Source: Hoeflea sp. (lineage in GTDB: Bacteria; Pseudomonadota; Alphaproteobacteria; Rhizobiales; Rhizobiaceae). From it: a stretch of DNA of 64,000 bases. The notes below the pieces were generated by a model, which was not told the origin of the DNA, made no database searches, and saw only the letters and a list, made by a program, of their open reading frames with translations. Position 1 is the stretch's first letter. Each line of letters opens with the position of its first letter. The position numbers and the translations under genes were made by a program. The stretch is taken from positions 124,001 to 188,000 of the forward strand of contig NZ_NVXQ01000003.1 in NCBI RefSeq assembly GCF_002733955.1. Reading direction: 5' to 3'. Shown here one piece after another: positions 17,568-41,376 of the stretch.

Positions 17568-17577
17568 TCCAGCCACC

Positions 17578-17630
17578 GACAGGCTCCCTGTCTGTGAAAA
17601 CATCGCAACCGGGTCTTCGGGCCCGGTTGC
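17578..17630 (+). promoter_or_regulatory. Two hairpins after the binding-protein gene (no U-tract)
   Basis: A small stem GACAGG/CCTGTC (17578-17583 with 17587-17592) is followed by a stronger one, GCAACCGGG (17605-17613) with CCCGGTTGC (17622-17630). The sequence after the second is AGGATCG, so neither is a normal terminator. They fill most of the 135-base gap between the binding-protein and ATPase genes and probably raise binding-protein mRNA over the rest. Confidence 0.6.
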
Positions 17631-17702
17631 AGGATCGAGGACCGAGTTCCTGAACTGCCCTCCATCCCGAAAGACCTTCACGCAGTCCCGACCGAGTTAT
17701 CC

Positions 17703-18725: not shown

Positions 18726-18727
18726 TC

Positions 18728-20752: not shown

Positions 20753-20755
20753 GCC

Positions 20756-21652: not shown

Positions 21653-24090
21653 CCCTTCCAGACAGAGCACAAATCGTCGTCATCGGTGGCGGCATTATCG
21701 GTTGTTCGACCGCCTACCATCTGGCGCGCGACCACAAGGCCGATGTCATACTGCTTGAGCAGGGTCAGCTGACTTCGGGCTCGACCTGGCATGCGGCAGG
21801 TCTTGTCGGGCAGCTTCGCTCCTCCGCATCAATCACCAAGGTGCTCAAATATTCGGTCGATCTCTACAAGCGGCTCGATCAGGAAACAGGCCTTGAGACG
21901 GGCTGGAAGATGTCCGGCTGCCTGCGCCTTGCCACCAACCAGGACCGCTGGATCGAGTACCGGCGGCTGGCGACGACGGCCCAGAGCTTCGGCATGGACA
22001 TGGAATTGCTGTCGCCGCAGGAGGCAAAGGCCAAGTTCCCGCTGATGCAGGTCGATGATCTCGTCGGCGCCAGCTGGCTGCCGACCGATGGCCAGGCCAG
22101 CCCATCCGATATTACCCAGTCGCTCGCAAAGGGTGCGCGCATGCATGGCGCGAAAATCTTCGAGAACGTGCGGGTCACCGGCTTCGACATGCAGGATGGC
22201 CGCATTCTTGCGGTCAAGACCAACAAGGGCGACATCGCCTGCGAAAAGGTCGTCAATTGCGCCGGGCAATGGGCCCGCCAGATCGGCGTCATGGCCGGCA
22301 TCAACGTTCCGCTGCAACCGGTCAAGCATCAATATGTCATCACCGAGAAGCTCGACGGGCTGTCGAGCGACGCGCCGACCATCCGCGATCCCGACCGCCG
22401 CACCTATTTCAAGGAAGAGGTCGGCGGACTGTCCTTTGGCGGTTACGAACCGAACCCGCAAGGCTGGACCACCGGCGGCGTGCCTAACGAGTTCGAGTTC
22501 CAGCTTTTTGACGACGATTACGATCATTTCGAACAGCACATGATGCAGGCCATCGAGCGCGTCCCATCGCTCGCCAATGTCGGCGTCAGGCAGATGATAA
22601 ACGGCCCGGAAAGCTTCACCCCGGACGGCAACTTCATTCTTGGCCCCGCGCCGGAATGCGTCAATATGTTTGTCGGCGCGGGCTTCAACGCCTTTGGCAT
22701 CGCCGCCGGTGGCGGCGCCGGCTGGGTGCTGGCGCAATGGGTGATCGATGGCGAAGCCCCGCTCGATCTCTGGGTCGTCGACATCCGCCGCTTTTCCGAC
22801 ATGCACAGGGACCGGCAATGGGTCAACGACCGCACGCTCGAAGCCTATGGCAAGCACTACGCCATCGGCTTCCCCCACGTTGAATACGAGTCCGGACGTC
22901 CCCGCATCGTCTCTCCGCTCTATGACCGGCTCAAGGCCCATCGCGCCGTCTTCGGCTCCAAGCTCGGCTGGGAGCGTCCCAACTGGTTCGCGCCCGAAGG
23001 CATGGAGCCGGCTGACATTCCGACAATGGGCCGCCAGAACTGGTTTGACGCGGTCGGCGAGGAGCACAAGCACGTCCGCGAAAAAGTCGGTGTTTTCGAC
23101 CAGTCCTCATTTGCCAAATACGAGATCAGCGGCTCGGGCGCACTCGCAGCACTGAGCCATATCTGCGCCAATGACGTGACCAAGCCGGTCGGGCGTCTGA
23201 CCTACACCCAGCTTCTTAATACCCGCGGCGGCATCGAGGCGGACCTCACCGTGGCGCGGATCGCCGATGACAGGTTCTACGTCGTCACCGGCACCGGTTT
23301 CCGTACACATGACCTGGCCTGGATCCGGGAGCATGTGCCCGAGGGCGCGGATGTGCAGATTGAGGACATCACCGAGGCCTACGGCACCCTGTCGTTGATG
23401 GGCCCGCATGCCCGCGACGTGCTGGAGAAGGTGACCCAAGCTGATGTTTCCAACGAGGCCTTCCCCTTCGGCCATGTCCGCGAGATCGGCATCGCCGGCA
23501 GCACCGTGCGCGCGTTGCGCGTCACCTATGTCGGCGAACTCGGCTGGGAACTCCATATCCCGATCGAAGCCATCGGCGAGGTCTTTGACGCCCTGATGCA
23601 GGCCGGCAAGACCTGGGACATCCGTCCCATCGGCTACCGCGCCCTGGAATCGCTGCGTCTGGAAAAGGGCTATCGCGCCTGGGGCTCCGACATCACCCCC
23701 AACGACACGCCGCAGGAAGCCGGTCTTGGCTGGGCGGTGCGCAAGAATTCCAACACCGGTTTCATCGGCGAAGCAGCTCTCAAGGCGATCGCCGACAAGT
23801 CTCTGACCAAACGCTTCGCCGGCTTTGTCATCGATGATCCCGATGCGGTTCTGGTCGGCCGCGAAACCATTTTGCGCAATGGCGAACCGGTTGGCTATCT
23901 GACATCGGGCGGCTACGGCTACACCATCGGCAAGAGCATTGGTTACGGCTATGTCCGCAACGAGGCAGGTGTCTCGAAGGAATTCCTCGAAGACGGGGCT
24001 TACGAACTTGTCATCGCGCTCGACCGGGTCCCGGCCAAAATCGGCCTGAAACCGTTTTACGATCCGGCAAACACCAAGGTGAAAGCCTGA
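21649..24090 (+). CDS. Dimethylglycine/sarcosine dehydrogenase-like flavoenzyme (FAD + aminomethyltransferase domains)
   Basis: 813 residues. The N-terminal DAO-type FAD domain starts IVVIGGGIIGCSTAYHLA (GGGIIG at 13-18). STWHAAGL places H48 where dimethylglycine and sarcosine dehydrogenases bind FAD covalently. The C-terminal half (from about 430, starting FDQSSFAKYEISG) is a GcvT-like tetrahydrofolate domain, with RALESLRLEKGYRAWGSDI near the end. Enzymes of this build oxidatively demethylate dimethylglycine or sarcosine and pass the one-carbon unit to tetrahydrofolate. With creatinase making sarcosine nearby and a betaine-type importer in the same operon, this is the likely next step towards glycine. 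Which of the two substrates it prefers cannot be read from sequence. Confidence 0.88.
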   Translation: MTLPDRAQIVVIGGGIIGCSTAYHLARDHKADVILLEQGQLTSGSTWHAAGLVGQLRSSASITKVLKYSVDLYKRLDQETGLETGWKMSGCLRLATNQDRWIEYRRLATTAQSFGMDMELLSPQEAKAKFPLMQVDDLVGASWLPTDGQASPSDITQSLAKGARMHGAKIFENVRVTGFDMQDGRILAVKTNKGDIACEKVVNCAGQWARQIGVMAGINVPLQPVKHQYVITEKLDGLSSDAPTIRDPDRRTYFKEEVGGLSFGGYEPNPQGWTTGGVPNEFEFQLFDDDYDHFEQHMMQAIERVPSLANVGVRQMINGPESFTPDGNFILGPAPECVNMFVGAGFNAFGIAAGGGAGWVLAQWVIDGEAPLDLWVVDIRRFSDMHRDRQWVNDRTLEAYGKHYAIGFPHVEYESGRPRIVSPLYDRLKAHRAVFGSKLGWERPNWFAPEGMEPADIPTMGRQNWFDAVGEEHKHVREKVGVFDQSSFAKYEISGSGALAALSHICANDVTKPVGRLTYTQLLNTRGGIEADLTVARIADDRFYVVTGTGFRTHDLAWIREHVPEGADVQIEDITEAYGTLSLMGPHARDVLEKVTQADVSNEAFPFGHVREIGIAGSTVRALRVTYVGELGWELHIPIEAIGEVFDALMQAGKTWDIRPIGYRALESLRLEKGYRAWGSDITPNDTPQEAGLGWAVRKNSNTGFIGEAALKAIADKSLTKRFAGFVIDDPDAVLVGRETILRNGEPVGYLTSGGYGYTIGKSIGYGYVRNEAGVSKEFLEDGAYELVIALDRVPAKIGLKPFYDPANTKVKA

Positions 24091-24097
24091 ACCGGAT

Positions 24098-24730
24098 TCA
24101 GCTTACCTTCAGCGCAATGCAGCGGCTCGGTGTGGTTCCCTCCTCGCCGGGCATCGAGACATAGGGACCGGTGTCGTCCACCAACGCGAGCCTGCCTTCC
24201 GCCTCCAGCTCGGCAATCCGCGCGCTGAAACTTGATTGCCAGAGCACATCCTTGACGGTCAGCACAATCGTGCCGCCCGGCGCACAGATCCGCAGCAGAT
24301 CATCAAGCCCCTCGACCCCGACATGGCCGGAGGTAAAGACGCCGGCTGAAATGATGGCGGCGAACTGGTTGTCGCTGAACGGCAACGTCCCGCCGAGGGC
24401 TGCCTTGTGCAGGCCCTTGTAGATGCCTTTCCGTTCCGCCACCGCCAGCATGCCCGAGGAAATGTCGAGCGCTTCGACAGTCTCAAAACCGGTGATTGCC
24501 AACCATTCGCCAATCAGCCCTGTGCCGGCTCCGGCGTCGAGCAGCGGCCCTGCGCCTTTCGGAACATGCCGTGCAAGGATCGCCAGCGAAATGGCCGGAT
24601 GCCGGTAGCCGGCAAGCGACATGTCCTCATCATATTTCTCGGCCCAGGAATCATACACCCGCGCCACATCATCGGCACTCTCGGCCTGGTACACGGCACC
24701 CAGCCGGGCCGTCTTGTCTTCAACATTCAT
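24098..24730 (-). CDS. Class I SAM-dependent methyltransferase
   Basis: 210 residues from the ATG at 24730 (GGAG six bases upstream). The frame stays open far upstream but that part is antisense to the next gene. LLDAGAGTGLIGEWL is motif I (SAM binding), VEALDISSGMLAVAE motif II, and LRICAPGGTIVLTVK motif III/IV. The N terminus with YDSWAEKYDEDM resembles the METTL27 (WBSCR27)-like and UbiE-like small-molecule methyltransferases. It is divergent from the second choline-kinase-like gene and convergent with the flavoenzyme, 7 bases past that stop codon. The substrate is not known; a methylated amine would fit the context. Confidence 0.82.
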   Translation of the reverse strand: MNVEDKTARLGAVYQAESADDVARVYDSWAEKYDEDMSLAGYRHPAISLAILARHVPKGAGPLLDAGAGTGLIGEWLAITGFETVEALDISSGMLAVAERKGIYKGLHKAALGGTLPFSDNQFAAIISAGVFTSGHVGVEGLDDLLRICAPGGTIVLTVKDVLWQSSFSARIAELEAEGRLALVDDTGPYVSMPGEEGTTPSRCIALKVS

Positions 24731-24830
24731 GTCCAGCTCCGCTGTTGATCCGTTGACCGTTACCATAGCCTTTTCAACGACTTTGTGGAACTGTGTCAGC
24801 ACTGAAATAGCAAAGAGGAAGCGCTCCGCC

Positions 24831-25742
24831 ATGCCAGATGAAACAGAAAACCAGCTGCGCGCCAGTCTCAAGTCCATCCCCTCGCTCGCCGCATACACCG
24901 GACCTGTAGAGCGCCTTGGCGGCCTCACCAATCTGGTCTTCCGCGTCGGAGATGCCTGTGTCCGCCTACCCGGCGCAGGCACCGAGGAATATATCAACCG
25001 GGCGCATGAGGCGGTTGCTGCCCGTGCGGCGGCTGAAGCCGGCGTCAGCCCCGAAGTCATCCATGCAGACCCCGAGACCGGCGTCATGGCGACCCGCTTT
25101 GTCGACGGTGCTGCGACCATGACCCCCGAGGGTTTCCGCGGTGATATCGGCGCCGTCCGCCGCGCCGGCGAAGCCTTCCGCCGCCTGCATACGTCCGGAG
25201 CCGAATTCCCGTTCACCTTCGAGCTGTTCTCGATGATCGATGAGTACCTGGCAATTCTGTCGACCAAGGACGTGGCATTGCCCGACGGCTATCACGATGT
25301 TGTTCGCGAAGCCGAAACCGTAAGGACTGCACTGGCGAAAAATCCCGCACCCCTGGTGGCCTGTCATTGTGATCCGCTGTGCGAAAATTTTCTCGACACC
25401 GGCGACCGCATCTTCATCGTCGACTGGGAGTATTCCGGCATGAACGATCCGATGTGGGATCTAGGCGATCTTTCGGTCGAGGGCGAATTCGATGCTGCAC
25501 AGGACCAGGCCTTGCTCGAAGCCTATTTCGGTGGCGAACCGGTCGCCTCCGATCGGGCGCGGATGGTGATCTACAAGGCCATGTGCGATCTGCTCTGGAC
25601 GCTGTGGGGGCTGATCCAGCTGGCCAACGACAACTCGGCCGAAGATTTCCGAGCCTATGCCGATGGCCGCTTTGCCCGCTGCCGGAAGCTGATGGCGACC
25701 GAGGAATTCGCAGGCTGCCTGGAAACATTGCAGTCCGCCTGA
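24831..25742 (+). CDS. Choline-kinase-like phosphotransferase (APH/LicA superfamily), second copy
   Basis: 303 residues from the ATG at 24831, with GAGGA 11 bases upstream. LGGLTNLVFRVG is the nucleotide-binding loop, CHCDPLCENFL the catalytic loop (Asp and Asn), and IVDWEYSGMNDPMWDLGDLS the second metal site. DWEYSGMND and the following acidic run are typical of LicA-type choline kinases. It shares the fold with the gene at 20756-21652, but the two differ clearly in sequence, so they are not a recent duplication. It diverges from the methyltransferase across a 100-base gap. Activity on choline or a related amino alcohol is likely but the true substrate is not known. Confidence 0.82.
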   Translation: MPDETENQLRASLKSIPSLAAYTGPVERLGGLTNLVFRVGDACVRLPGAGTEEYINRAHEAVAARAAAEAGVSPEVIHADPETGVMATRFVDGAATMTPEGFRGDIGAVRRAGEAFRRLHTSGAEFPFTFELFSMIDEYLAILSTKDVALPDGYHDVVREAETVRTALAKNPAPLVACHCDPLCENFLDTGDRIFIVDWEYSGMNDPMWDLGDLSVEGEFDAAQDQALLEAYFGGEPVASDRARMVIYKAMCDLLWTLWGLIQLANDNSAEDFRAYADGRFARCRKLMATEEFAGCLETLQSA

Positions 25743-26654: not shown

Positions 26655-27905
26655 TCATCGAGCTTTCACGTCAGCCACGTCGGCGGCCGTCATCTGGCCA
26701 TTGGTGACAACTTCGCCATCCTTGATCTGCCAGAGGCGGAACGGACCGGAGATGTCGCCATACTGGTCGAACGACACATTGCCGATCACGCCCTGGTAGT
26801 TGATCGCCTTGCCTTCATTGATCAGCGCCAGCGCCTTCTTGAACTCTTCCGGTCCGGCATAGATCACCTCGCCTTCCGGGTCGACAACCGAGCGGATGGC
26901 GTCGCGGATCGCTGCAGACTCGGCCTTGCCAGCCTTGGCGACCGCCAGCCCGACAATCGCACCCGCATCATAGGACCGGTCGGCCGCAGGCGCCGATGGC
27001 GCAATGCCGCCGGAGAACTCTTCGTAATTGGCGTAGAAATACTTGGTCGAGTCCGTCTCGGTGGTACCCGAAGACGTACCAAAGGCGCCTTCAAGATATT
27101 GTGCGCCGACAGCCTCGATGAAGTCGGTCGAGTTCATGCCATCATTGAGCAGGAACTTCTGCGGCCCGCCCTGGCTGATCCAGGCCCGCGCAACGGTTGC
27201 GCCGTCGACAGGATAGCTGATCAGGTAGAGCGCTTCCGGTTCACCCTCCATCGCCGCGGTCACTTCGGCGCTGTAGTTGGGCTGGTTCTCGTTATACGGC
27301 GTCGCCGAGGTAATTTCGCCACCCAGAGCCACGTAGGAGGCTGAGAATTCGCGCATCAGGTTGAGGCCGAAATCATTGTTGACGTGAATGATGGCCAGTT
27401 TCTTGAGCCCGGAGTCGATGGCGTATTTCGCCGCCGCGATTCCCTGCAGCGCATCCGAGGTGATGGTGCGGAAGAAGTAACCGCCGGTCTTGCCGTCGCG
27501 GCTGAGCTGCGTCAGCGTCGGGCTCGAAGAAGCCGGCGAAACCTGAACCACTTCGGCCGCGGCCGTCACCGATGTCAGGATCGGGATCGAGACCGACGAG
27601 ATGATGCCGCCGATGACGACGGGAACCTGCTTGACATTGACGAGCTGCGTCGCTTGGTCGACGGCCACATTGCCCTGGCTCTGGCTGTCGCGGGTATCGG
27701 TCACAAGATCGCAGCCCAGCACACCGCCGGCCTCGTTGATGTCGCGGAAGGCCATTTCCACCGATTTCGCCCCGGCCTGGCCATAGGCGCCAGCCGGTCC
27801 GGTCAGTTCCATCACCATGCCGATGGTGATGTCGCAAGCTTGCGAGCTCAGCGCCGAAGCGCACAACATGGCCATGGCAAGGCCCGATTTTCTGATCATG
27901 TTCAT
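26655..27905 (-). CDS. Branched-chain-amino-acid-type ABC importer, periplasmic binding protein
   Basis: 416 residues with a signal peptide (about 1-23) and AAGGAG before the ATG. The mature N terminus CDITIGMVMELTGPAGAYGQ is the LivJ-like opening. VPVVIGGIISSVSIPIL, VVQVSPASSSPTLTQL and YDAGAIVGLAVAKAG are the following Peripla_BP_6 segments. It belongs to the HAAT importers, which take amino acids, amides, urea and aromatic or cyclic acids. It is the last gene of the minus-strand operon that starts with the GntR regulator, while its ATPases and permeases are on the opposite strand from 30568. Ligand unknown. Confidence 0.88.
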   Translation of the reverse strand: MNMIRKSGLAMAMLCASALSSQACDITIGMVMELTGPAGAYGQAGAKSVEMAFRDINEAGGVLGCDLVTDTRDSQSQGNVAVDQATQLVNVKQVPVVIGGIISSVSIPILTSVTAAAEVVQVSPASSSPTLTQLSRDGKTGGYFFRTITSDALQGIAAAKYAIDSGLKKLAIIHVNNDFGLNLMREFSASYVALGGEITSATPYNENQPNYSAEVTAAMEGEPEALYLISYPVDGATVARAWISQGGPQKFLLNDGMNSTDFIEAVGAQYLEGAFGTSSGTTETDSTKYFYANYEEFSGGIAPSAPAADRSYDAGAIVGLAVAKAGKAESAAIRDAIRSVVDPEGEVIYAGPEEFKKALALINEGKAINYQGVIGNVSFDQYGDISGPFRLWQIKDGEVVTNGQMTAADVADVKAR

Positions 27906-27945
27906 TCGCGTTCTCCTTGTTATGGGGCCTCTCTCGCCCGCTTCG

Positions 27946-28350
27946 TTATGCCAAAATCCACGTCTCCTGCAGCTGCCGCCAGACCACCCCCTCAGGTGCC
28001 TCCGGGTCGGCGCTGAACACGGCAGAGGAGCGGCGCGCAGACTTTTGCCCGTCGATCACCTGGTGTTCGTCGTAGACCACAAGCACGATGCCCTCACCGA
28101 GCTCATGTGCTACGATCAAGTCCACTCTGATCTCGAAATCCGCCGGGCGCTTGCCGCGCGCCGCCTTGATCATGGCGGCAATCTCCGCCGTGCCGATGGT
28201 GTTGGCATCGGGCTCGATCATCATCATGTCGGACGCAAACGCCCGCAGCGACACCGACAGATCCGCATCCGTTGCACGCCCGGTGAACCACTCGACAAAG
28301 AATTTGTGCCGGTTGACGACTTCAGCCTGGGCGCGCGCGATCAGATCCAC
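27946..28350 (-). CDS. NTF2-like / SnoaL-like small protein
   Basis: 134 residues. The N-terminal helix (VNRHKFFVEWFTG) precedes SLRAFASDMMMIEPDANTIG. The C-terminal strands (RVDLIVAHELGEGIVLVVYDEHQV, then VVWRQLQETWIL) have the alternating pattern of the cone-shaped NTF2 fold used by SnoaL-type cyclases, ketosteroid isomerases and many binding proteins. It lies between the aldo/keto reductase (four bases) and the binding-protein gene in the GntR-led operon, so it probably acts on an intermediate of the same pathway. I see no catalytic residue set that fixes its reaction. Confidence 0.65.
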   Translation of the reverse strand: MDLIARAQAEVVNRHKFFVEWFTGRATDADLSVSLRAFASDMMMIEPDANTIGTAEIAAMIKAARGKRPADFEIRVDLIVAHELGEGIVLVVYDEHQVIDGQKSARRSSAVFSADPEAPEGVVWRQLQETWILA

Positions 28351-28354
28351 GAGA

Positions 28355-29410
28355 TCAGTGCCCTTCCTTGTTGAGATTGTATTTCATCACCGAACCATGC
28401 TTGCCGTTGCGGTCCCGCTCCAGCGTGTAGACATCGCCCGGCACCGGGTTGGCCCGCGCCAGCACGGCATCAATCGCAGCGAAATCCTGGGCAGTAAGCT
28501 TGATCCCCGGAATGGCCAGATTGCGCGCAAGGTGATTTCGGTTGCGCGCGCCGACGATCACGGCGGCAACTCCCGGGCGCTCGAGCACGGCGCGGCTGGC
28601 AATCGAGGCGATGTCGCTGTCATGGCGCGCGGCGATCGCAGACAGCACCTCAAGAAGCTCCTGGAACAGGTCCCAACCGCCGAACTCGTCGACGATCAGC
28701 TTGTACTTGATCAACGAACGGTTCTCGAAGGGAGACTGCAGTTCCGGCACGCCCAGCATGCGCTCGGAAAACAGCCCGCCACCGACCGAACCATAGCACA
28801 GCAGATTGACTCCATGGACTTGAGCCGCTTCGACCATCGACCGAGACGGTCGGTCATCGATCAGCGAATACTGCACCTGCATCGAGACCAGCGGCACCCC
28901 GGCCTTGACGATCCGCAGCATCTGCTCGGTGTTGAAATTGGTACCGCCGATATTGGCGATTTTGCCTTCCTGGCGGAGCTCCGCCAGCCAGCCGGCCACC
29001 TCGACCTGGCGGTCGATCTCGTAGTCCCACCAGTGGAACTGCACCAGGTTGAGCTGTTCCATCCCGAGGCGCTTGAGGGAGGTGTCGATTCCTTCGACAA
29101 CATCTGCCCGCGTCAGCGTGGCGAGATTGCCCAGATCCGGCACGAATTTGGTATGCACCTTGATCCGGCTCAGCGCCTCAGTGCCCCTCACCCGTTCATA
29201 CTCCTTGCGAAAATCGCCGATCAGCGCTTCCACGCCGGTGTAGATGTCCGCGCAATCGAATGTCGTGATCCCCGCATCGGCAAAGGCAATCATGTCCTCG
29301 ATGCCGGCCTGCCGGTCGACCTCGCCGTGGCCGCCGGCCAGCTGCCAGCCGCCCTTGATAACACGCGAGATCCGGTGTCCGGGCGCGAGGTCAAATGTCT
29401 GCATTGTCAT
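28355..29410 (-). CDS. Aldo/keto reductase
   Basis: 351 residues, (beta/alpha)8 barrel. The catalytic tetrad is in place: Asp and Tyr in FDCADIYTG, Lys in KVHTKFVP, His in LVQFHWWDYE. C-terminal VIVGARNRNHLARNL is the NADPH-binding segment. It shares unusual motifs with the reductase domain of the fusion at 33953 (LAPGxxISR near the start, QFHWW, GVPLVSxQV, SLIDxR), so the two are paralogues in one cluster. Its start overlaps the end of the TIGR04076 gene by 20 bases. It probably reduces an aldehyde or ketone intermediate, or runs the reverse oxidation. Confidence 0.88.
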   Translation of the reverse strand: MTMQTFDLAPGHRISRVIKGGWQLAGGHGEVDRQAGIEDMIAFADAGITTFDCADIYTGVEALIGDFRKEYERVRGTEALSRIKVHTKFVPDLGNLATLTRADVVEGIDTSLKRLGMEQLNLVQFHWWDYEIDRQVEVAGWLAELRQEGKIANIGGTNFNTEQMLRIVKAGVPLVSMQVQYSLIDDRPSRSMVEAAQVHGVNLLCYGSVGGGLFSERMLGVPELQSPFENRSLIKYKLIVDEFGGWDLFQELLEVLSAIAARHDSDIASIASRAVLERPGVAAVIVGARNRNHLARNLAIPGIKLTAQDFAAIDAVLARANPVPGDVYTLERDRNGKHGSVMKYNLNKEGH

Positions 29411-29747
29411 CTCCCAGCGGCACCGCTGTCGTCTCTGAATGGTTGAAGCGCCTGAGCTTCGTGCGGGTAATTCTCAGCCGCGACGGGCAATGCGGGTCCG
29501 GACAGGCAATTTCCGCGTCCGTTGACATCCAGTCATTGGGATCGGTCTGGCGCTGTTTCGCCGCCAGCAGCGGCAGCACCGAAGCCAGAGAGTAGATCGA
29601 CATGCCCTGTCCCGGCGGCAAATGCAGCATCTCGCCGCGCAGCTCGAAATAGTCGCCGACCTTGGCCCCGCACCAGATCTTCGCACCTTCCGGGGCCACC
29701 ACCTCTACCTTCAGGTCCCAAAGCTCAAACCCTTCATCGGCACTCAT
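29391..29747 (-). CDS. TIGR04076-like protein of unknown function
   Basis: 118 residues. LWDLKVEVVAPEGAKIWCGAKVGDYFELRG, PPGQGMSIYSLASVLPLL and MSTDAEIACPDPHCPSRLRI follow the pattern I remember for TIGR04076. That pattern is a strand pair, a Cys-Gly-x-Lys-x-Gly-Asp turn, a helix over SIY..LxPLL, and a final CPDP strand. No reaction is known for this family. It overlaps the GntR gene by four bases and the reductase gene by 20, so it is part of the operon. The three cysteines (WCG, ACPDPHC) could bind a metal; that is a guess. Confidence 0.65.
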   Translation of the reverse strand: MSADEGFELWDLKVEVVAPEGAKIWCGAKVGDYFELRGEMLHLPPGQGMSIYSLASVLPLLAAKQRQTDPNDWMSTDAEIACPDPHCPSRLRITRTKLRRFNHSETTAVPLGDDNADI

Positions 29748-30469
29748 GACGCGGCTCCGTTTTCAGCAACCCAGAACTCTGGCCCGGCCCGTTCGAGAAT
29801 GGCAAAGGACTGGCTGATATCGGCAGTCAGCTCGGCCGAAACCTGCGCCTTGTCACCAGCCCTGATCGCCGCGAGAATGCCGCGGTGATGCAACGTGGCC
29901 GCCGTATCGGTGAGCGGGCTGTGCAGCTTTGCCGCCGCTCGCACATAGGGCCCAGCCTGCATCCACAGGCTTTCGACGATCGGCATGAACACCGACGACC
30001 CGGCGGCCTCGTAGAGCTTGAAATGGAAAGCGTGGTTGAGCGTGGCGACATCCTGCGCCTCGCCTGTGTCCTCATACTCGGATGTCAGAATTTCCAGCCG
30101 CTTGATATCCGCATGGGTCAGATTGGCAATCGCCCGGGCTGCGAGTTCACCTTCGATCAGGGTGCGCGCCTGGGCGATATCGCGCGCCCGCTCCAGCGTC
30201 AGAAGGGGAACCCGCACCCGCCGGTTTGCCATCGCCTCGAGCGCGCGCTCCGAAACCAGCCGGGCCAGCGCTTCGCGCACCGGCATCGAACTCACCGACA
30301 TCCGCTGCGCCACATCACCGGCCAGAAAGATCTCGCCGGCATCAAACCGGCCCTGGATCAGGGCATCGCGAAGCTGCCGGTAAATCCGGTCCTGAACCGT
30401 TTCCCGGCCAACCGGCGCGAGATGATCAAGCCCGGGTCCGTCAAACTTTGAGCTGGTCTGAATGTTCAT
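29744..30469 (-). CDS. GntR-family transcriptional regulator (FCD/VanR-type)
   Basis: 241 residues from the ATG at 30469. An in-frame start at 30553 would run through the palindrome in the divergent promoter and is less likely. The winged helix spans about 25-90 (VQDRIYRQLRDALIQGRFDAGE, then SVSSMPVREALARLVSERALE). The C-terminal all-helical FCD ligand domain has the metal-ligand pattern with LNHAFHFKLYEAA and a later HHRGILAAI. FCD regulators usually repress neighbouring catabolic genes until an organic acid binds. It is the first gene of the minus operon and is divergent from the livG-like gene. Confidence 0.88.
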   Translation of the reverse strand: MNIQTSSKFDGPGLDHLAPVGRETVQDRIYRQLRDALIQGRFDAGEIFLAGDVAQRMSVSSMPVREALARLVSERALEAMANRRVRVPLLTLERARDIAQARTLIEGELAARAIANLTHADIKRLEILTSEYEDTGEAQDVATLNHAFHFKLYEAAGSSVFMPIVESLWMQAGPYVRAAAKLHSPLTDTAATLHHRGILAAIRAGDKAQVSAELTADISQSFAILERAGPEFWVAENGAAS

Positions 30470-30544
30470 TCTGACAATGCCGCCTTCTTCCGTTTGCAGC
30501 TTTACTTTAGGCCTCAAACATGATCCTGTAAATGATAAATGATA

Positions 30545-30554
30545 GTTGATCAAC
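30545..30554. promoter_or_regulatory. Perfect palindrome in the GntR/livG divergent promoter
   Basis: GTTGATCAAC is a perfect 10-base palindrome, 14 bases before the livG-like ATG, preceded by a short direct repeat ATGATAA-ATGATA (about 30532-30544). FCD-type GntR regulators bind short palindromes of about this size, so this is the probable autoregulatory operator. Its position would also block the importer transcript. Confidence 0.45.
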
Positions 30555-30567
30555 TTTGGTTGAGTGA

Positions 30568-31350
30568 ATGACAGACCCCAGTCAGCCCTCCATCCTCGAG
30601 GCCCGCGGCATCACCAAATCCTTCGGTGGTTTCTGCGTCGTCAATGATATTTCCCTGGACCTTGCGGCCTCCGAGATACTTGGCGTCATTGGTCCCAACG
30701 GCGCCGGCAAGTCGACATTGTTCAATCTGCTCGCCGGCGCCTTGCCGGTTGACGCGGGCAGCATTCGCCTGGCCGGCAAGGACTTGACGCGGGCCCGTCC
30801 GGAAGCCCGCATTCAGTCCGGTCTCGGGCGCACCTTCCAGATCCCGCGGCCCTTCCCGCGCATGACGGTGCTGGAAAATGTCATGACCGCGGCGCAGAAC
30901 CAGCGCGGCGAAAGCCTGTTTTCCGCCCTTGCCGCACCGCGCCTCGTTGCCCAGCAGGAACGCGCCAATGCTGCGCGCGCCCGCGACATTCTCGACTTCG
31001 TCTCACTCTCCCATCTCGAGGACCAGCCTGCGGCGGTCCTCTCTGGCGGGCAGAGAAAACTGCTCGAGCTGGCGCGCGTACTGATGGCCGAACCGCGCGT
31101 CATTCTGCTTGATGAGCCGGCCGCCGGGGTCAATCCGGCGCTTCTGGATCTGATCATCGACCGGATTGTCGCGATCAACGAGCTGGGAATTGCAGTGCTG
31201 CTGATTGAACACAACATGGAGATGATCGCCCGTCTTTGCCCCCGCGTCATGGTGATGGCCGCGGGCAAGGCGCTGGCCGAGGGCACGCCTGCCGAGGTCA
31301 CCAAGCGCGCTGACGTGATCGATGTCTATCTCGAGGGCATGCCGACATGA
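30568..31350 (+). CDS. livG: Branched-chain-amino-acid-type ABC importer, ATP-binding protein (LivG-like)
   Basis: 260 residues, typical LivG length. Walker A GPNGAGKST (about 38-46), signature LSGGQRKLLELARVL, Walker B VILLDEPAAGVNP, switch His in IEHNMEMIARLC. The family-specific RTFQIPRPFPRMTVLENV loop is present. It energises the HAAT importer together with the LivF-like protein. First gene of the plus-strand operon and divergent from the GntR regulator. The next gene overlaps by four bases (ATGA). Confidence 0.93.
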   Translation: MTDPSQPSILEARGITKSFGGFCVVNDISLDLAASEILGVIGPNGAGKSTLFNLLAGALPVDAGSIRLAGKDLTRARPEARIQSGLGRTFQIPRPFPRMTVLENVMTAAQNQRGESLFSALAAPRLVAQQERANAARARDILDFVSLSHLEDQPAAVLSGGQRKLLELARVLMAEPRVILLDEPAAGVNPALLDLIIDRIVAINELGIAVLLIEHNMEMIARLCPRVMVMAAGKALAEGTPAEVTKRADVIDVYLEGMPT

Positions 31351-32078
31351 CCGCGCTGTCGCTATCGCAACTGCAGGCCGGGTACGATCCCGACCTGCCC
31401 ATCGTCAAGGGCGTGAGCTTCACCGTCAAAAAGGGCGAAGCCGTCTGCATTCTCGGCCCCAACGGGGCCGGAAAATCCACCATGATCAAGGCCATCGCCG
31501 GGCTGGTTCCCTGTTTCGGCGGCCAGGTGCGGCTCGGCGAAACGGATGTCACCGGCCTGCCTTCGCACCTTCTGGCGCGCAACGGCATGGGCTTCGTGCC
31601 CCAGACCGAAAACATCTTCACCCGTCTTTCCATCATCGAGAACCTGCAGATCGCCGCGCAATTGCTGCCCAAGCACGAGCGCCCCGGCCGGATCGAGGCG
31701 ATGCTCGATATGTTTCCCGACCTCGCCGCCCGCCCGCGCGAACTGGCTGGCGCACTGTCCGGTGGCCAACGCCAGATGCTTGCCGCAGCACGGGCGCTTC
31801 TTACCGAGCCGGAGGTGCTGATGCTCGATGAACCTTCCGCCGGCCTTTCGCCCAAGCTCGTCGGCCAGGTGTTTGAAACCCTGCGCAGGATCTCCGAAAC
31901 CGGCGTGACGCTGGTGCTGGTGGAACAGAATGTTCGCGCAGCCCTGACACTCACCGAACGTGCTCTGGTGCTCGTCGACGGCAAGCTGGCCCATGACGGA
32001 CCGACCGACGTGCTTCACGACGGCAAGTTTCTGGGCGAACTGTTTCTCGGCCATCGCGCAGCGGAGGCAGGCCAATGA
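31347..32078 (+). CDS. livF: Branched-chain-amino-acid-type ABC importer, ATP-binding protein (LivF-like)
   Basis: 243 residues. Walker A GPNGAGKST, signature ALSGGQRQMLAAARALL, Walker B VLMLDEPSAGLSPKLV. The LivF-type Q-loop region GMGFVPQTENIFTRLSIIENL is clear. It forms the second nucleotide-binding subunit with the LivG-like protein. Both ends overlap neighbours by four bases, so the operon is tightly coupled. Confidence 0.93.
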   Translation: MTALSLSQLQAGYDPDLPIVKGVSFTVKKGEAVCILGPNGAGKSTMIKAIAGLVPCFGGQVRLGETDVTGLPSHLLARNGMGFVPQTENIFTRLSIIENLQIAAQLLPKHERPGRIEAMLDMFPDLAARPRELAGALSGGQRQMLAAARALLTEPEVLMLDEPSAGLSPKLVGQVFETLRRISETGVTLVLVEQNVRAALTLTERALVLVDGKLAHDGPTDVLHDGKFLGELFLGHRAAEAGQ

Positions 32079-32989
32079 ACCCGCAAGCCATCATCGACGG
32101 ATTGATTGCCGGCTCCACCATCGGGCTGGGGGCGATCGGCCTGACGCTCACCTATTCCATTCTCCGCTTTGCCAATTTCACCCATGGCGATTTTCTCGCC
32201 TGGGGCGCCTATCTTACCCTCACCGTCGCAGGCGTTCTCGGCGGTCTTGCAGCCGGTCTCGGCGCCCCGGTCTATCCCTTCAGCTTCGGCTGGGGCCTGC
32301 CGCTTGCCATGCTCGGCGGCGTGGCGCTGACGGTGGCCCTGACCCTCGGGCTCGACCGGGTCCTGTTCGGAAAACTGCGGGCCAGGGGCGCTGATGCGAT
32401 CATCATCGTCATGGCAAGCTTTGGCGCGTCCATGGCGCTGCGCTCGCTGCTCGAGTTCATTTTCACCGCCAAGCCCGTCTATTTCACCAAGGCGCTGCAG
32501 ATCGCCAAGCCGCTGGGTCTTGGAATGCGCGCGACGCCGGACCAGCTTCTTGTGATCGGGCTCACCGCGCTGCTGGTTCTCGCGCTGCATCTGCTGGTCA
32601 CATACAGCGCCACCGGCCGCGCCATGCGGGCGGTTTCCGAAGATCCGGGCCTTGCAGGCGTCTACGGGATCGATGTCGCCAAGGTGGTGCGTGTGACCTG
32701 GATCATCGGCGCCGGCATGGCTTGCATCGCCGGCGTCATGGCAGGCCTGCTGGTGCAGATCCGCCCCTATATGGGCTTTGACCTGCTGCTACCGCTGTTC
32801 TCCGCGGCCATTCTAGGCGGCATCGGCTCCATCCCCGGCGCCATGCTCGGCGGATTAATCATCGGGCTCAGCGAAGCCTTTGCGGTGCAGATCATCGGTG
32901 CGGAATGGCGCGCAGCCATTTCCTTTGTCATCCTCGTCATCGTGCTGATGCTGCGCCCGCAGGGCCTCTTCGGTCAGAAGGAGGCCTGA
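32075..32989 (+). CDS. livH: Branched-chain-amino-acid-type ABC importer permease (LivH-like)
   Basis: 304 residues, with about eight hydrophobic helices. N-terminal IIDGLIAGSTIGLGAIGLTL and LRFANFTHGDFLAWGAYLTL are the LivH signatures. VSEDPGLAGVYGIDVAKVVRVTW is the cytoplasmic coupling region and ILGGIGSIPGAMLGGLIIG the conserved late loop. It pairs with the LivM-like permease two bases downstream. Confidence 0.92.
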   Translation: MNPQAIIDGLIAGSTIGLGAIGLTLTYSILRFANFTHGDFLAWGAYLTLTVAGVLGGLAAGLGAPVYPFSFGWGLPLAMLGGVALTVALTLGLDRVLFGKLRARGADAIIIVMASFGASMALRSLLEFIFTAKPVYFTKALQIAKPLGLGMRATPDQLLVIGLTALLVLALHLLVTYSATGRAMRAVSEDPGLAGVYGIDVAKVVRVTWIIGAGMACIAGVMAGLLVQIRPYMGFDLLLPLFSAAILGGIGSIPGAMLGGLIIGLSEAFAVQIIGAEWRAAISFVILVIVLMLRPQGLFGQKEA

Positions 32990-32991
32990 GA

Positions 32992-33951
32992 ATGGAAATC
33001 CTTGCTTACGCCGCCTTCTTCCTCACCATTGCCCTGACCTATGCCATCATCTGTCTGGGCCTGAACGTGCAATGGGGCCAGACCGGCCTGTTCAATGTCG
33101 GCATCGCCGGCTTCGTCGGCCTCGGCGCCTATGTCTCTGCCGCTCTGACGACGCCCGATGCGGTCGAGCGGATTGGCGGCTTCGATCTGCCCATCGTGCT
33201 GGGCTGGCTGGCAGCCATGGTGGCCGGCGGAGTGCTGGCGCTTGCCGTAGGTCTGCTGACCCTGAGGATGCGGTCCGACTACCTGGCAATCACCACATTC
33301 GGCATCGCCGTGGCGCTGCAGCTTGTGTTCCAGAACACCGAAAGCCTCACCGGCGGCGCCTTCGGCATGGCCTTCATCCCGCGACCGTTTTCCGGCCTGC
33401 AGAGCGAGCCTTTTGCTTTCAACGTGCTCAACCTGGCGCTCACGGCGCTCGTCGTGCTGGTGCTTTATTTCCTGCTCGAGCACCTCTTGCGCAGCCCCTG
33501 GGGCCGGGCGCTCAGAGCCGTGCGCGAGGATGAGGTTGCGGCACAGGCGCTAGGCAAGAACCCTATCCTGCTGCGCATTCAGGCCTTCGCGCTCGGCGGC
33601 GCCATCATGGCGCTGGCCGGTGCGGTGCAGGCCCATTTCATCGGCTTCATCGCCCCGGGCAATTACCTGCCGATGATGACCTTCCAGGTCTGGGCCATGC
33701 TGATCGTCGGCGGCTCCGGCAACAACCGTGGCGCCATTCTGGGTGCCGTGCTGGTCTGGGCCATCTGGGCGCTCTCCGGTGCGCTGATTTCCGAAATCTT
33801 CCCGGCCGACCAACAGGCCCGCGCCGCGTCACTGCAGATCGTCATCATCGGCGTCATGCTCTGCGCCATCCTGCTCTGGCGGCCTCAGGGAATTTTGCCG
33901 GAAGTGCGCTCCGTCTCCCGTCATCTTGGGCTTCGAAACAAGGACAACTGA
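32992..33951 (+). CDS. livM: Branched-chain-amino-acid-type ABC importer permease (LivM-like)
   Basis: 319 residues from the ATG at 32992, which has AAGGAGG six bases upstream; an in-frame start at 32905 lies inside livH. NVQWGQTGLFNVGIAGFVGLGAY is the LivM signature, REDEVAAQALGKNPILLRIQAF the coupling loop, and GGSGNNRGAILGAVLVW the late conserved loop. It completes the channel. The aldo/keto reductase-RidA gene starts directly after this stop codon, so the enzyme is expressed with the importer. Confidence 0.92.
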   Translation: MEILAYAAFFLTIALTYAIICLGLNVQWGQTGLFNVGIAGFVGLGAYVSAALTTPDAVERIGGFDLPIVLGWLAAMVAGGVLALAVGLLTLRMRSDYLAITTFGIAVALQLVFQNTESLTGGAFGMAFIPRPFSGLQSEPFAFNVLNLALTALVVLVLYFLLEHLLRSPWGRALRAVREDEVAAQALGKNPILLRIQAFALGGAIMALAGAVQAHFIGFIAPGNYLPMMTFQVWAMLIVGGSGNNRGAILGAVLVWAIWALSGALISEIFPADQQARAASLQIVIIGVMLCAILLWRPQGILPEVRSVSRHLGLRNKDN

Positions 33952-33952
33952 T

Positions 33953-35425
33953 ATGAAACCTGACCGCACCGACCTTGCTCCGGGCCTCACCATCAGCCGT
34001 ATCCTCACCGGTCTCTGGCAGGTCGCCGACCAGGAAAAGGATGGCAGCACGCTTGATCCCGTGGCCGGCGCAAAGGCCTTGTCTGAGTATGCCGCTGCCG
34101 GTTTCGATACATTCGACATGGCCGATCACTATGGCAGCGCCGAGCTGATCACCGGCGAATTGCTGCGCAGCTGGAACGGGGAAACCCGGCCAAAGGCCTT
34201 CACCAAATGGTGCCCGGAACCCGGGCCGATGACACCGGAAGTCGTGCGCGCCGGGATTCAGGATCGGCTTGACCGTCTCGGTGTGAAGACGGTCGATCTG
34301 CTCCAGTTCCACTGGTGGACCTTCGAGCACCCGGCCTGGCTTGATGCGCTGCATGAGCTCAAACGGCTCAAGGACGAAGGTCTGATCGGGCAGATCGGCG
34401 TCACCAATTTCGACGCCGCCCATCTCGCCTTGGCCCTGGCCGAAGGCATTCCGCTGGTCTCGAACCAGGTCTCATTCTCGCTGATCGACCGCCGCGCCGC
34501 GGGCCACCTCGCCGAAACCTGCAAGAAACACGGCGTCCGGCTTCTCGGCTATGGCACCCTGTGCGGCGGCTTCCTGTCCGAACGCTGGCTTGGCAAGCCT
34601 GAGCCCGAAGCGGTTGAGGACTGGAGCGGCTCGAAATATCTCCGTTTCATCCAGACCGCCGGCGGCTGGGACGGCTATCAGGGGATTCTCAAAGCTGCCG
34701 ATACCATCGCCAAAAAGCATGGCGTCTCGATTTCCAACGTGGCCACCCGCTGGGTGCTGGAGCACGCCCATGTCGCAGGCGTCATCGTTGGCGCGCGGCT
34801 TGGCGAAAACCAGCACCGGAACGACAATCTGCGGCTGTTCCAGTTCGAACTCGATGCGGATGACCATGCCCTGCTGGATCAGGCCTTCGCAGCCACCAAA
34901 ATGATCCCGGGCGATTGCGGCGACGAATACCGCCAGCCGCCCTTCCTCACGGCCTCCGGAGACCTGAGCCATCATCTCGCGGCCATGCCCAGCGCTCTAA
35001 CCGCCGTCACCGATCCGGACAATCCGGACCGGGCGCGGGTGTTCTCAGGCTCACTCTGGGAGCCGATTGCGGGCTATTGCCGCGCGTTGCGGGACGGCGA
35101 CCGTATTGTCGTGTCCGGCACCACCGCCACCCATGGCGTCGACCGCACCGTCGCGATCAACGACGCAGGCGGGCAGACCACCTACATTCTCGACAAGATC
35201 GCAGCTTCCGTCCGCGCTCTCGGTGGCGACCCGAAAGACATCCTGCGCACCCGCATGTATCTGCGCGGTGACGAGGATATCGAGGCAGCCGCCCGCGCCC
35301 ACGGGCTGCGTTTCACCACCAATCCACCGGCCAACACCACGTTTCTTGTCGGCAATCTGATCGGTGATTTCCGCGTCGAGATCGAGGCCGAGGCCGTGGT
35401 CAGCAAGAAGCCGCAGGAAGGCTGA
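33953..35425 (+). CDS. Aldo/keto reductase fused to a RidA-like (YjgF) domain
   Basis: 490 residues from the ATG at 33953 (AAGGA eight bases upstream, one base after the livM stop). Residues 1 to about 330 are an aldo/keto reductase with Asp and Tyr in FDMADHYGSAE, Lys in FTKWCPEPG and His in LLQFHWWTFE. Residues about 345-485 are RidA-like (RDGDRIVVSGTTATHG, AASVRALGGDPKDILRTRMY, FRVEIEAEAV). The arginine that RidA uses to bind the substrate carboxylate, in the PARS motif, is replaced: the motif here reads PPANTT. The domain is therefore probably not a 2-aminoacrylate deaminase, though it may still bind an imine or enamine. A separate RidA fused to a reductase suggests channelling of a reactive intermediate. 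Confidence 0.85.
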   Translation: MKPDRTDLAPGLTISRILTGLWQVADQEKDGSTLDPVAGAKALSEYAAAGFDTFDMADHYGSAELITGELLRSWNGETRPKAFTKWCPEPGPMTPEVVRAGIQDRLDRLGVKTVDLLQFHWWTFEHPAWLDALHELKRLKDEGLIGQIGVTNFDAAHLALALAEGIPLVSNQVSFSLIDRRAAGHLAETCKKHGVRLLGYGTLCGGFLSERWLGKPEPEAVEDWSGSKYLRFIQTAGGWDGYQGILKAADTIAKKHGVSISNVATRWVLEHAHVAGVIVGARLGENQHRNDNLRLFQFELDADDHALLDQAFAATKMIPGDCGDEYRQPPFLTASGDLSHHLAAMPSALTAVTDPDNPDRARVFSGSLWEPIAGYCRALRDGDRIVVSGTTATHGVDRTVAINDAGGQTTYILDKIAASVRALGGDPKDILRTRMYLRGDEDIEAAARAHGLRFTTNPPANTTFLVGNLIGDFRVEIEAEAVVSKKPQEG

Positions 35426-35431: not shown

Positions 35432-36736
35432 TCAGATCCCCAGCCTGTCCCGCAACCGGTAAGCCGCCACCGACGGCGCCAGGAACCACGGATTGCCCGT
35501 GTAGAAGGGGCGCGTCCTGAACGGAATTTCACTGAAGGCCCCGAGATCCGTGTCCACGCCTGCGGCCGCCCTGCCGAGTTTCGCGCCGAGATACCCGGCC
35601 ATGCCGACGCCCGAGCCGCAATAGCCCATGCCGTAGAAGAGATTGTTGTCTTCGCCGCAATGCATCAGCGTGTCGAAGGTAAACGCCACGATGCCGGCCC
35701 AGGAATGGCTGATCCGGGTGCCCTTGAGGTCGGGAAACAACCGCACCAGTTCGGCCAGCAGTTTTGGTCCGCTCTTGCGCGGATCGGTCTCCTGCAGCGA
35801 CACCCGCCCACCGAACAGAATACGCTTCCGGTCCGGTGACGGGCGGTAGTAATAGACCAGCTTCCTGGTGTCGGAGAGAATGCGGTTGGTCGGAAACAAC
35901 CGGTCCATGGTCTCGGCCGGAATTTCTTCGGTGGCAATCACGTAGGACCCGATCGGGATCACCCGACGCTGCTGCCACGGCGACAGCGGGCCGGTATAGC
36001 CATTGGTGGCGATGATCACCTTGCCCGCGCGAATCCGGCCCTTGTCGGTGGAAAGCTCGAAGCCCTGTGGCCCGCGCTCGAGATCATTGACCCGGCACTG
36101 GCTGACAACAGCTGCACCAGCAGCCCTTGCCACGCCAAGCAGGCCCGCATGGTACTTGCCCGGATCGATGCTCGAATGCCGCGGAAACACGATCCCGCCA
36201 TAATAGGCATCGGTGCCCAGTTCGTTGTGCTGCTTGTCGCGCGACACCATGAAGGCCCCGGTCTCAAAGCCGGGGTGCCGGTGTTCCGCCTCGCGCGCCA
36301 GCTTGTCATACTGGCGCGCGGTGTGGGCGCCGTGAAACCGGCCCACCTCGTCGAAACTGCAATCGATCCCCTCGTCAGAGACAAAGTCCCGCACATGATG
36401 CAGCGATGCCTGGCCTTCCTTGAGAATCCGGACGGCCAGCGCCTCGCCGTAGCGTTCGCAAAGCGTGGAATAGGACGGCTTGACGCTGGTCGAGATTTGC
36501 CCGCCATTGCGGGTGGAGCAGCCGAAACCGGCGGCCTCCGCGTCGACGACAACCGTATCGAGCCCGGCGCGCGCAGTCTGCACCGCTGCATGCAAACCGG
36601 TATAGCCCGACCCGATGATCACCACATCCGCGGTTGCGGGCAGCTTGCTCAGATCGTCGGGCTGTCGCGGGCTTGCATCCCACCAGTAGGGCGCCGGCTT
36701 GAAGTCCGCGCTGAAGCACTCGCTTTCTTGTGTCAT
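35432..36736 (-). CDS. FAD-dependent amine/amino acid oxidase (DadA / PuuB-like)
   Basis: 434 residues. The N-terminal [11 protein letters not shown] tail and [20 protein letters not shown] (dinucleotide fold, about 32-51), then [13 protein letters not shown], match the gamma-glutamylputrescine-oxidase-like branch of the DAO superfamily. IIATNGYTG and [16 protein letters not shown] are later FAD-contact segments. Such enzymes oxidise a secondary or primary amine to an imine, giving aldehyde and ammonia after hydrolysis. It is the last gene of a six-gene minus operon with a Pot-type importer and a GMC oxidoreductase, and converges with the reductase-RidA fusion (six bases between stops). Confidence 0.85.
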
Positions 36737-36737
36737 C

Positions 36738-38372
36738 TCAGGCTCCCGCGTGGTCGGAGAGGATCATGTCTGCCCCCTTTTCCGCCACCATGATTGTCGG
36801 TGCATTGGTGTTTCCCGATGTCACAGTCGGAAAGACGGAGGCATCGATCACGCGCAGCCCTTCCAGGCCGTGCGCCTGCAGCCGCGAATTGACAACCGAG
36901 TTGGTCGCGCTCTCGCCCATGCGGCAGGTGCTGACCGGATGAAACACCGTCCCCGCCCTTGCGCGGATATCGGCGATCATCTCCTCATCCGTTTCCACCT
37001 GCCGGCCCGGACGGATTTCCTCGTCCAGAATCTCGGCGAATGCCGGCGCCTGGGCGAGTCTGCGCAGGAACCGCGCGCCCTCGAGCTGCTCGGCTACATC
37101 ATGATTTGTCGAGAGATAATTCGGATGGATCGCAGGTGCATCAAACGGATCGGCAGACTTGAGGTCAAGATGGCCACGGCTTGTCGGCCGCGTCGGCTGG
37201 GTGCCCATGATCACGCCGGAAAACGGGTCCGGGCTCATCAGCGGCCGCTTTCCGGGCGGCGCCTTGGTGTAACTCACCGGCGAGAAATAGAGCTGCATGT
37301 TGGGCCGCTCAAGCTCCGGCCGGGTTTTGATGAAGCCGCCAGCCTGGTTGACGCCGAGCGACAGGGGACCGCGACGCCTGAGCACATAATTCAGTCCATG
37401 CAACAGTTTGCCATGCAGCGGTCGCAGATCATCATTGAGCGTTCTGACCTTGGCCTTGTAGGTGTGGTCGATACATAAATGGTCCTGCAGATGCCGGCCC
37501 ACATTGGCCTGCTCATGAACAATCTCGATACCGTGCCGCTTGAGCGTTTCCGCCGGGCCGACGCCCGACAGCATCAGCAGTTGCGGCGAGTTCACAGCTC
37601 CGCCCGAGACGATCACCTCCCGGCCCGCGTGAACCTGGTGTGTACGGCCGTTACGGACATACTCGACGCCCGTGGCGCGCGTTCCGTCGAAGAGAATCCG
37701 CGTTGCATGGGCGCGCGAAATCACCCGAAGATTGGACCGCTTTCTTGCCGGATGAAGGTATGCCCGGGCGGCCGACATGCGGAAGCCGCCCTTGGCCGTG
37801 TTCTGGTAGAGCCCGATGCCCTCATTGCTGGCAGCATTGAAATCCGCAGTGTAGCTGAGCCCGCATTCCTCACCGGCACGAATGAAGTTCTGGCAGGTCG
37901 GGTGCAGATCCCTGTCCATGGTCGAGACATGCAGCGGTCCGCTGTCGCCGCGCCATTCGCTGCCACCCTGGTCGCTGGTTTCGCTTTTCCTGAAATAGGG
38001 CAGCACGCCGTTCCAGCCCCAGCCGGGATTCCCCATAGCCTCCCAGTCGTCAAAATCGCCGGAATGGCCGCGGATATAGACCATGGCATTGATCGAGGAG
38101 GACCCGCCAATCACCTTGCCGCGCGGCCAGTAGCTAACGCGGTTCCCCGTGCCCGGATCAGGCTCGGATGTGTACATCCAGTTGATGCGCTTGTCGTAAA
38201 ACGCCATTCCGTAGCCGATCGGCATCCAGATCTTGAAGTTGCGGTCATGACCGCCGGCCTCCAGCAGCAGCACGGAGTACTTGCCGTTTTCGGTCAACCG
38301 GTTGGCCAGCACGCAACCGGCAGACCCTGCGCCAACAATAACGAAGTCATAGCTTTGCACGGGGTGCACCAC
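36738..38372 (-). CDS. GMC-family oxidoreductase (choline/alcohol dehydrogenase-like)
   Basis: 544 residues. [19 protein letters not shown] (about 11-29) binds the ADP part of [25 protein letters not shown] is GMC signature 1 and [17 protein letters not shown] signature 2. [10 protein letters not shown] carries the catalytic His and [12 protein letters not shown] the second polar residue near the C terminus. GMC enzymes of this length oxidise choline, polyethylene glycol or other alcohols to aldehydes. Start is a GTG-GTG pair at 38372/38369; AGGAG is about 13 bases upstream. It follows the PotC-like permease gene in the operon and precedes the oxidase gene by one base. Confidence 0.88.
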
Positions 38373-38397
38373 TCTCGGGTTTGGCTCCTCGTGGAGC

Positions 38398-40124: not shown

Positions 40125-40134
40125 CGGATCGCCC

Positions 40135-41268: not shown

Positions 41269-41312
41269 CGAGTGCCCAGTGCAGTGTCGTCAGGTGTCTT
41301 TGAAGGTTTCAG

Positions 41313-41343
41313 TGCGGCTGCCCAGGATGGACGGGCAGCCGCA
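41313..41343 (-). promoter_or_regulatory. Post-binding-protein hairpin (no U-tract)
   Basis: TGCGGCTGCCC (41313-41323) and GGGCAGCCGCA (41333-41343) pair perfectly over a nine-base loop. Read on the minus strand, the sequence after the hairpin is CTGAAACC, with no run of T. It sits in the gap between the binding-protein and ATPase genes, in the same position as the hairpins of the other importer operons here. Confidence 0.6.
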
Positions 41344-41376
41344 TCATCTCACGAAAAGATAGTCGTGGGGCCTGGC

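Follow-up and report, generated by a model that had tools for sequence, protein, structure and literature searches.

We analysed a 64,000-nucleotide stretch of the genome of a Hoeflea sp. (contig NZ_NVXQ01000003.1, positions 124,001 to 188,000; hereafter the window) and found that a gene cluster at 26655-35425, which includes an aldo/keto reductase (AKR) fused to a Rid domain (AKR-Rid), belongs to a gene set carried by many soil and marine alphaproteobacteria. The conserved regulated unit is very probably real. Tentatively, we interpret it as a module under GntR/FCD control that takes up and breaks down a small amino (amine-bearing) solute, one step being an imine/carbonyl redox reaction. Its parts are of known kinds; within the literature searched, neither their combination nor the architecture of AKR-Rid appears to have been described.

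A nine-gene core and its predicted operator

Ten open reading frames (ORFs) tile the cluster (Table 1), with families assigned from Pfam and NCBIfam, in agreement with a preliminary description of this DNA that had named ten contiguous genes of these families. That description also spoke of two divergent, overlapping operons. Their divergence was borne out, but the ATG starts of GntR (30469) and LivG (30568) are 98 nt apart and the operons do not overlap one another; inside each operon, adjacent genes share 4 to 20 nt or are separated by 1 to 40 nt, the start of LivM being uncertain. The ATG codons at 30469 and 33953 are the likely starts of GntR and AKR-Rid, respectively.

When contigs were scanned with the fused reductase, 154 relatives were confirmed; the best 80 were taken as loci, a sample in which distant relatives are under-represented. 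Among these 80, the closest AKR-Rid relatives are from Hoeflea (93% in H. halophila). In 62 loci, nine core genes lie in the same order and on the same strands, with the binding protein, the stand-alone reductase (AKRm), TIGR04076 and GntR on one strand, and LivG, LivF, LivH, LivM and AKR-Rid on the other. The same loci thus share the arrangement noted previously, in which one importer is split over both operons around the regulator. Four loci hold all nine core genes in rearranged form (L058, L061, L068 and L076), the reductase and TIGR04076 genes are retained in 66, and contig ends truncate five (L002, L013, L041, L059 and L079). Because the core order recurs in 62 of 80 loci whose single core proteins are 45–98% identical, the grouping is not a matter of chance.

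We then took the 62 canonical loci, whose left flank had a median length of 2.9 kb, and grouped all non-core ORFs of at least 90 amino acids. The largest flank family, a generic ABC-ATPase group, occurred in 33 loci and its antisense shadow in 26; the remaining families reached at most 12, compared with 62 for the largest core families. This supersedes an earlier check of all 80 loci, in which no non-core family exceeded nine loci except ORFs antisense to core genes (98 of the 100 members of six larger groups) and which was insensitive, the gene caller having detected TIGR04076 in 27 loci and LivH in 36.

The conserved neighbourhood proposed for the fusion protein therefore held for the nine-gene core but not for the tenth gene, which encodes the small, putatively NTF2-like protein and was found in just 21 of the 62 canonical clusters; the other 41 have a gap between binding protein and AKRm averaging 86 bases. 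We accordingly rejected this protein as an essential part, and the argument that had been built on it is weakened. It gave a sub-threshold Pfam hit to S6PP_C and has a relative in the PDB (PA1314, entry 1tp6; E = 1e-5), the fold of which we take to be NTF2-like; some of its own relatives match DUF4440/SnoaL_2.

The gene set is also found on plasmids. Using tblastn against 72,556 plasmid records, with counts drawn from the best 40 (AKR-Rid) or 60 matches, we found AKR-Rid at at least 80% coverage in 17 records among the matches listed; AKRm and TIGR04076 lay within 10 kb in all but one of these (16 records), that of Antarctobacter heliothermus. AKRm was present at at least 49% identity in 24 of the best 60 records, two of which represent the same plasmid of one strain. 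TIGR04076 adjoins AKRm in 22 of these listed 24; in the other two it lies 3.4 kb away (Natrinema) or was not found (Rhizobium jaguaris). Two haloarchaeal plasmids carry AKRm and TIGR04076, the rest of the set not being seen in the stretch read, and these two genes may be the oldest part of the cluster. A Microvirga locus (L084) shows a further arrangement, with no GntR seen in the stretch read. Among the 80 loci, L046 has just a binding-protein gene beside AKR-Rid before its contig ends. Another of them, L052, labelled 'Mycobacterium sp. KBS0706', carries the cluster with a GntR–LivG gap closely resembling the one in Inquilinus limosus (L030), suggesting that this genome is mislabelled.

The regulator matched both a GntR helix-turn-helix and an FCD domain in Pfam. 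In the gap between GntR and LivG, the palindrome TTGATCAA was present in 61 of 63 sequences (62 loci and the window) and TGATCA in all 63. After removal of gaps sharing 8-mers, TTGATCAA remained in 28 of 30, while in 300 base shuffles it reached a maximum of 2 and any 8-base palindrome a maximum of 4; the whole 1.6 Mb of the 80 loci contains 87 copies. In the window it forms the centre of AGTTGATCAACT. Four of five canonical plasmid clusters (L082, L083, L093 and L094) carry it, and it was not found at that position in loci with only the liv genes and AKR-Rid. Judged from this conservation, TTGATCAA is a likely operator, predicted to be that of GntR.

Table 1. Features of the cluster and of its predicted operator, with positions in the window.
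Feature	Position	Strand	Basis
HAAT-type solute-binding protein (Peripla_BP_6)	26655-27905	-	Pfam, NCBIfam
NTF2/DUF4440-like small protein, optional member	27946-28350	-	PDB relative 1tp6
AKRm, stand-alone aldo/keto reductase (Aldo_ket_red)	28355-29410	-	Pfam; tetrad D52 Y57 K88 H126
TIGR04076 protein	29391-29747	-	NCBIfam, 62.6 bits (cut-off 33)
GntR+FCD regulator	29744-30469 (longest ORF to 30553)	-	Pfam, NCBIfam
Palindrome AGTTGATCAACT, predicted GntR operator	30544-30555		Conservation of its centre TTGATCAA
LivG-type ABC ATPase	30568-31350	+	Pfam, NCBIfam
LivF-type ABC ATPase	31347-32078	+	Pfam, NCBIfam
LivH-type permease (BPD_transp_2)	32075-32989	+	Pfam, NCBIfam
LivM-type permease (BPD_transp_2)	32905-33951, real start probably downstream	+	Pfam, NCBIfam
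AKR-Rid fusion (Aldo_ket_red + Ribonuc_L-PSP)	33953-35425 (longest ORF from TTG 33926)	+	Pfam

Importer, reductases and TIGR04076

The HAAT-type importer is complete, with a Peripla_BP_6 protein, two BPD_transp_2 permeases and two ABC ATPases, all above Pfam gathering scores. All five subunits scored far under the curated NCBIfam cut-offs of the Liv and Urt models listed (for example, 146.6 against 379 bits for the LivH model and 196 against 286 for UrtE). Aligned with the amino-acid binder 3ip5, the binding protein has S103, S127 and D255 opposite S, T and D, respectively. Among 61 canonical sequences (2 of 62 having been lost to a length filter), position 103 is always Ser, and position 127 is Ser in 60 and Thr in one.

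The two reductases are paralogues, as had been proposed, with 38.6% identity over 332 amino acids between AKRm and the reductase domain of AKR-Rid. The catalytic tetrad of AKR-Rid (D64, Y69, K94 and H129, numbered from TTG 33926) is intact in 85 of 85 sequences, comprising the window, 76 of the 80 loci (four were lost to a length filter) and eight plasmid loci. AKRm, which matches PF00248, has an intact tetrad in 75 of 81 sequences and ends in the signature HG.(I/V)MKYNLN. The nearest NCBIfam model for the reductases was methylglyoxal reductase YdjG, far under its cut-off, and the 50 fold neighbours listed for the AKR-Rid model were all AKRs, the nearest being deoxynivalenol, tylosin and Tas/IolS-type AKRs, so that the Rid part was judged from its sequence. 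The linker between the two domains, PGDCGDEYR.PP.LTASGDLSHHL, is nearly invariant although the model is uncertain there (predicted local distance difference test (pLDDT) about 58–75), and may thus form an interface or an extra site. For AKR-Rid, the structure alignment covered 34 of 80 sequences, and for TIGR04076, 31 of 66.

TIGR04076 was modelled with a pLDDT of 85. A fold search against the PDB gave no significant match (best E = 0.31), and a profile search against the PDB reached at best E = 0.003, with designed TIM barrels, which we took as chance. We considered a three-cysteine metal protein, since all 67 sequences compared have C26, C82 and C87, and rejected it: two haloarchaeal relatives lack all three cysteines, so that a metal site would not be general. 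On Rhodococcus plasmids, TIGR04076 genes adjoin LLM flavin-dependent oxidoreductases (L092, 7995-8315; L095, 6682-7192), and the family may partner oxidoreductases more generally. Among the papers searched, TIGR04076 is named in one, in a gene table of Bilophila wadsworthia.

Sister clusters and the proposed chemistry

Alongside the canonical form (type A), we distinguished two sister forms of the cluster. Type B, found in Mesorhizobium B1-1-8 (L086), Rhizobium 11515TR (L091) and Rhizobium AB2/73 (L096), retains GntR, TIGR04076, AKRm, the NTF2-like protein, the binding protein and LivGFHM, and adds DUF3830. In all three, a DAO-family FAD enzyme stands at one operon's end in place of AKR-Rid in the stretch read. 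The best NCBIfam model for this enzyme was L-pipecolate oxidase, under its cut-off of 600 bits in the two scanned (297 and 255 bits); the remaining enzyme shares 93% identity with the second of these. In the six type C clusters (the four rearranged loci together with L089 and L090), TIGR04076, AKRm, LivGFHM and the binding protein form a single operon. An aspartate-dehydrogenase-like gene (Asp_DH_C) lies beside the binding protein in five of the six, and AKR-Rid is placed divergently in five of the six.

Two positions separate type C from the rest. Position 255 of the binding protein is Asp in 70 of 70 type A and B sequences, those from plasmids included, and Asn in all six type C sequences, as it also is in L046. 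Residue 126 of AKRm is His in all 75 non-type-C sequences and Phe or Tyr in all six of type C. Because both change together in type C, importer and AKRm appear to be tied to one chemistry.

These variants carry the amine part of our interpretation, which rests on the DAO and aspartate-dehydrogenase-like enzymes of the sister clusters and on the binding-protein residues, rather than on the Rid domain. The substrate could well be an amino compound, though we would stop short of calling this probable. The sequence in which the steps occur is more doubtful, and might run as follows. GntR would repress both operons at TTGATCAA until the solute or its product binds, and the solute would be imported by the binding protein and LivGFHM. 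In the window cluster, AKR-Rid would carry out a redox step at the C–N bond, giving an imine or carbonyl; in type B the AmaA-like FAD oxidase would take on this step, and in type C the aspartate-dehydrogenase-like enzyme would join or replace AKR-Rid. AKRm, with TIGR04076 as a dedicated partner, would then reduce (or reversibly oxidise) the carbonyl, and the product would pass to central metabolism. The Rid domain would serve as a ligand-binding or release module and not as a classical RidA deaminase. A bolder version makes AKR-Rid a single-chain NAD(P)-dependent deaminating dehydrogenase that replaces the flavin amine oxidases of type B, in which the barrel oxidises the C–N bond, the arginine-less Rid domain with its P-A-N-T site, together with the linker, takes over the imine and hydrolyses it, and TIGR04076 is the dedicated partner of the second reductase; we consider this improbable.

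Several observations weigh against the proposed amine-processing module. To our knowledge, oxidation of C–N bonds by AKRs is not established, and the assignment of D255 and S127 as amino-acid-binding residues is one that we take from the HAAT structures of Atu2422 and LivJ. AKR-Rid was not found in type B, a result that covers about 21 kb and the plasmid searches. The six type C clusters may form one lineage, so that their joint change may be a single evolutionary event. The palindrome TTGATCAA is absent from one canonical plasmid cluster (L081), also when one mismatch is allowed, from the gaps of type B loci L086 and L091 and from those of type C; the gap of the third type B locus, L096, has a one-mismatch copy, which is at chance level. 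Five rhizobial loci (L021, L026, L027, L029 and L031) have LivGFHM and AKR-Rid only, GntR, AKRm, TIGR04076 and the binding protein not being found in the stretch searched, and we read them as degenerate or differently wired clusters. AKR-Rid occurs without the rest of the set in L054, L072, L078 and plasmid locus L085. Finally, Asn470 of the Rid domain occupies the position of the RidA catalytic Arg, and the Asn-Thr of this P-A-N-T motif is present in 85 of 85 sequences; the PDB relative PH0854, when aligned, shows Pro-Ala-Arg there.

This last point bears directly on the Rid domain, in which E485 and E487 of a VEIEAEA motif are invariant. According to PMC4433059, RidA activity depends on the catalytic Arg, and Rid subfamilies without it appear not to hydrolyse imines. 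Membership among the RidA-type imine deaminases was rejected, as the residue equivalent to Arg105 of TdcF is Asn throughout. The preliminary description had taken the RidA-like domain as a sign of imine handling, an argument that loses force here. The reactive carbonyl/imine intermediate that it proposed fits the two AKRs in its carbonyl part; its imine part finds no backing in the Rid domain, but draws some support from the DAO and aspartate-dehydrogenase-like genes of the sister clusters.

The missing arginine also suits the strongest rival, catabolism of a non-nitrogenous carbonyl or polyol (ketose, aldehyde or lactone). Here the reductases would act in sequence, like ordinary carbonyl reductases or alcohol dehydrogenases, the Rid domain would be a trimeriser with a structural role, and the importer would take up an organic acid or sugar-like solute. 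Both window reductases have intact D-Y-K-H tetrads, and the nearest NCBIfam model, though far under its cut-off, and the nearest of the listed fold neighbours, both named above, also favour this rival. Such a pathway would leave the redox enzymes of the sister clusters unaccounted for, as well as the match of binding-protein residues to those of amino-acid binders, and we regard it as possible but unlikely.

A role in detoxification or metabolite repair, with AKR-Rid and AKRm clearing an internal reactive aldehyde, ketone or imine, and an importer that retrieves a precursor or is merely co-regulated, is quite unlikely. It would explain the loci in which AKR-Rid stands alone (L054, L072 and L078), and Rid proteins function in damage control (PMC4433059); the close association of the genes with an FCD regulator and an importer of their own speaks against it, as does the joint change of the binding protein and the AKRm active site. 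That the cluster is simply an importer of branched-chain amino acids, its reductase genes being hitch-hikers, as its Liv-type transporter might suggest, is very unlikely given five subunits far under the curated Liv and Urt cut-offs and reductase and TIGR04076 genes kept in 66 of 80 loci while the flanks vary.

Neighbouring genes and relation to known systems

Immediately downstream of the cluster lies a DAO/GMC/Pot-type operon (35432-42453). We rejected it as part of the cluster because close relatives of its FAD oxidase (DAO) and GMC genes (35432-38372) occur in just 9 of 80 loci, all Hoeflea-like, and the H. olei locus (L008) lacks this operon. The window DAO (35432-36736) is 29% identical to the type B enzymes of L086 and L091.

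Elsewhere in the window, at 16548-24090, choline/betaine-type ABC genes (an OpuAC binding protein, a ProV-like ATPase and a 674-amino-acid permease with two choline-permease-like stretches) are followed by a GntI-like phosphotransferase and an 813-amino-acid oxidase with DAO and GcvT domains; together they may form a pathway for a choline relative that is phosphorylated or methylated. Another ORF for a GntI-like phosphotransferase (24621-25742; 160 bits, cut-off 357) has relatives near the cluster in Hoeflea loci. At 46991-51197, domain matches identified AstE/AspA-like, M24 peptidase, ornithine cyclodeaminase and PALP genes side by side, an order resembling an ectoine degradation operon. Scans of the window returned no tRNA and no Rfam match at gathering thresholds, and a promoter and terminator scan gave results close to those of a shuffled control.

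In line with the earlier remark that no described pathway with this set was known, no description of it appeared among the papers listed by searches of the open-licence PubMed Central (PMC) literature. The importer shares its Peripla_BP_6 protein, two BPD_transp_2 permeases and two ATPases with HAAT/Liv-type systems (LivJFGHM and UrtABCDE); it differs from them in that its binding protein is encoded in the opposite operon, in being tied to two AKRs and TIGR04076, and in its scores under the curated cut-offs. Both reductases have the fold and D-Y-K-H tetrad of the AKR superfamily (AKR11/IolS, DepB and YdjG-like); they appear to be distinguished by the C-terminal signature of AKRm and by the linker and Rid domain of AKR-Rid. 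With the RidA/YjgF family (RidA to Rid7; PMC4433059), the fusion shares the Ribonuc_L-PSP domain with its two glutamates. Unlike those proteins, it has its Rid domain C-terminal to an AKR and an invariant Asn at the Arg position, and the word 'aldo' is absent from the main text of that paper. L-pipecolate oxidase AmaA and other DAO oxidases, together with NadX-type aspartate dehydrogenases, are relatives of the extra redox enzyme of the sister clusters, whereas the window cluster itself contains no such enzyme.

The cluster thus provides a widespread test case for an arginine-less Rid domain fused to an AKR, for the TIGR04076 family and for an FCD regulator with a predicted operator. The three natural variants of the cluster limit what this chemistry can be and open it to testing.

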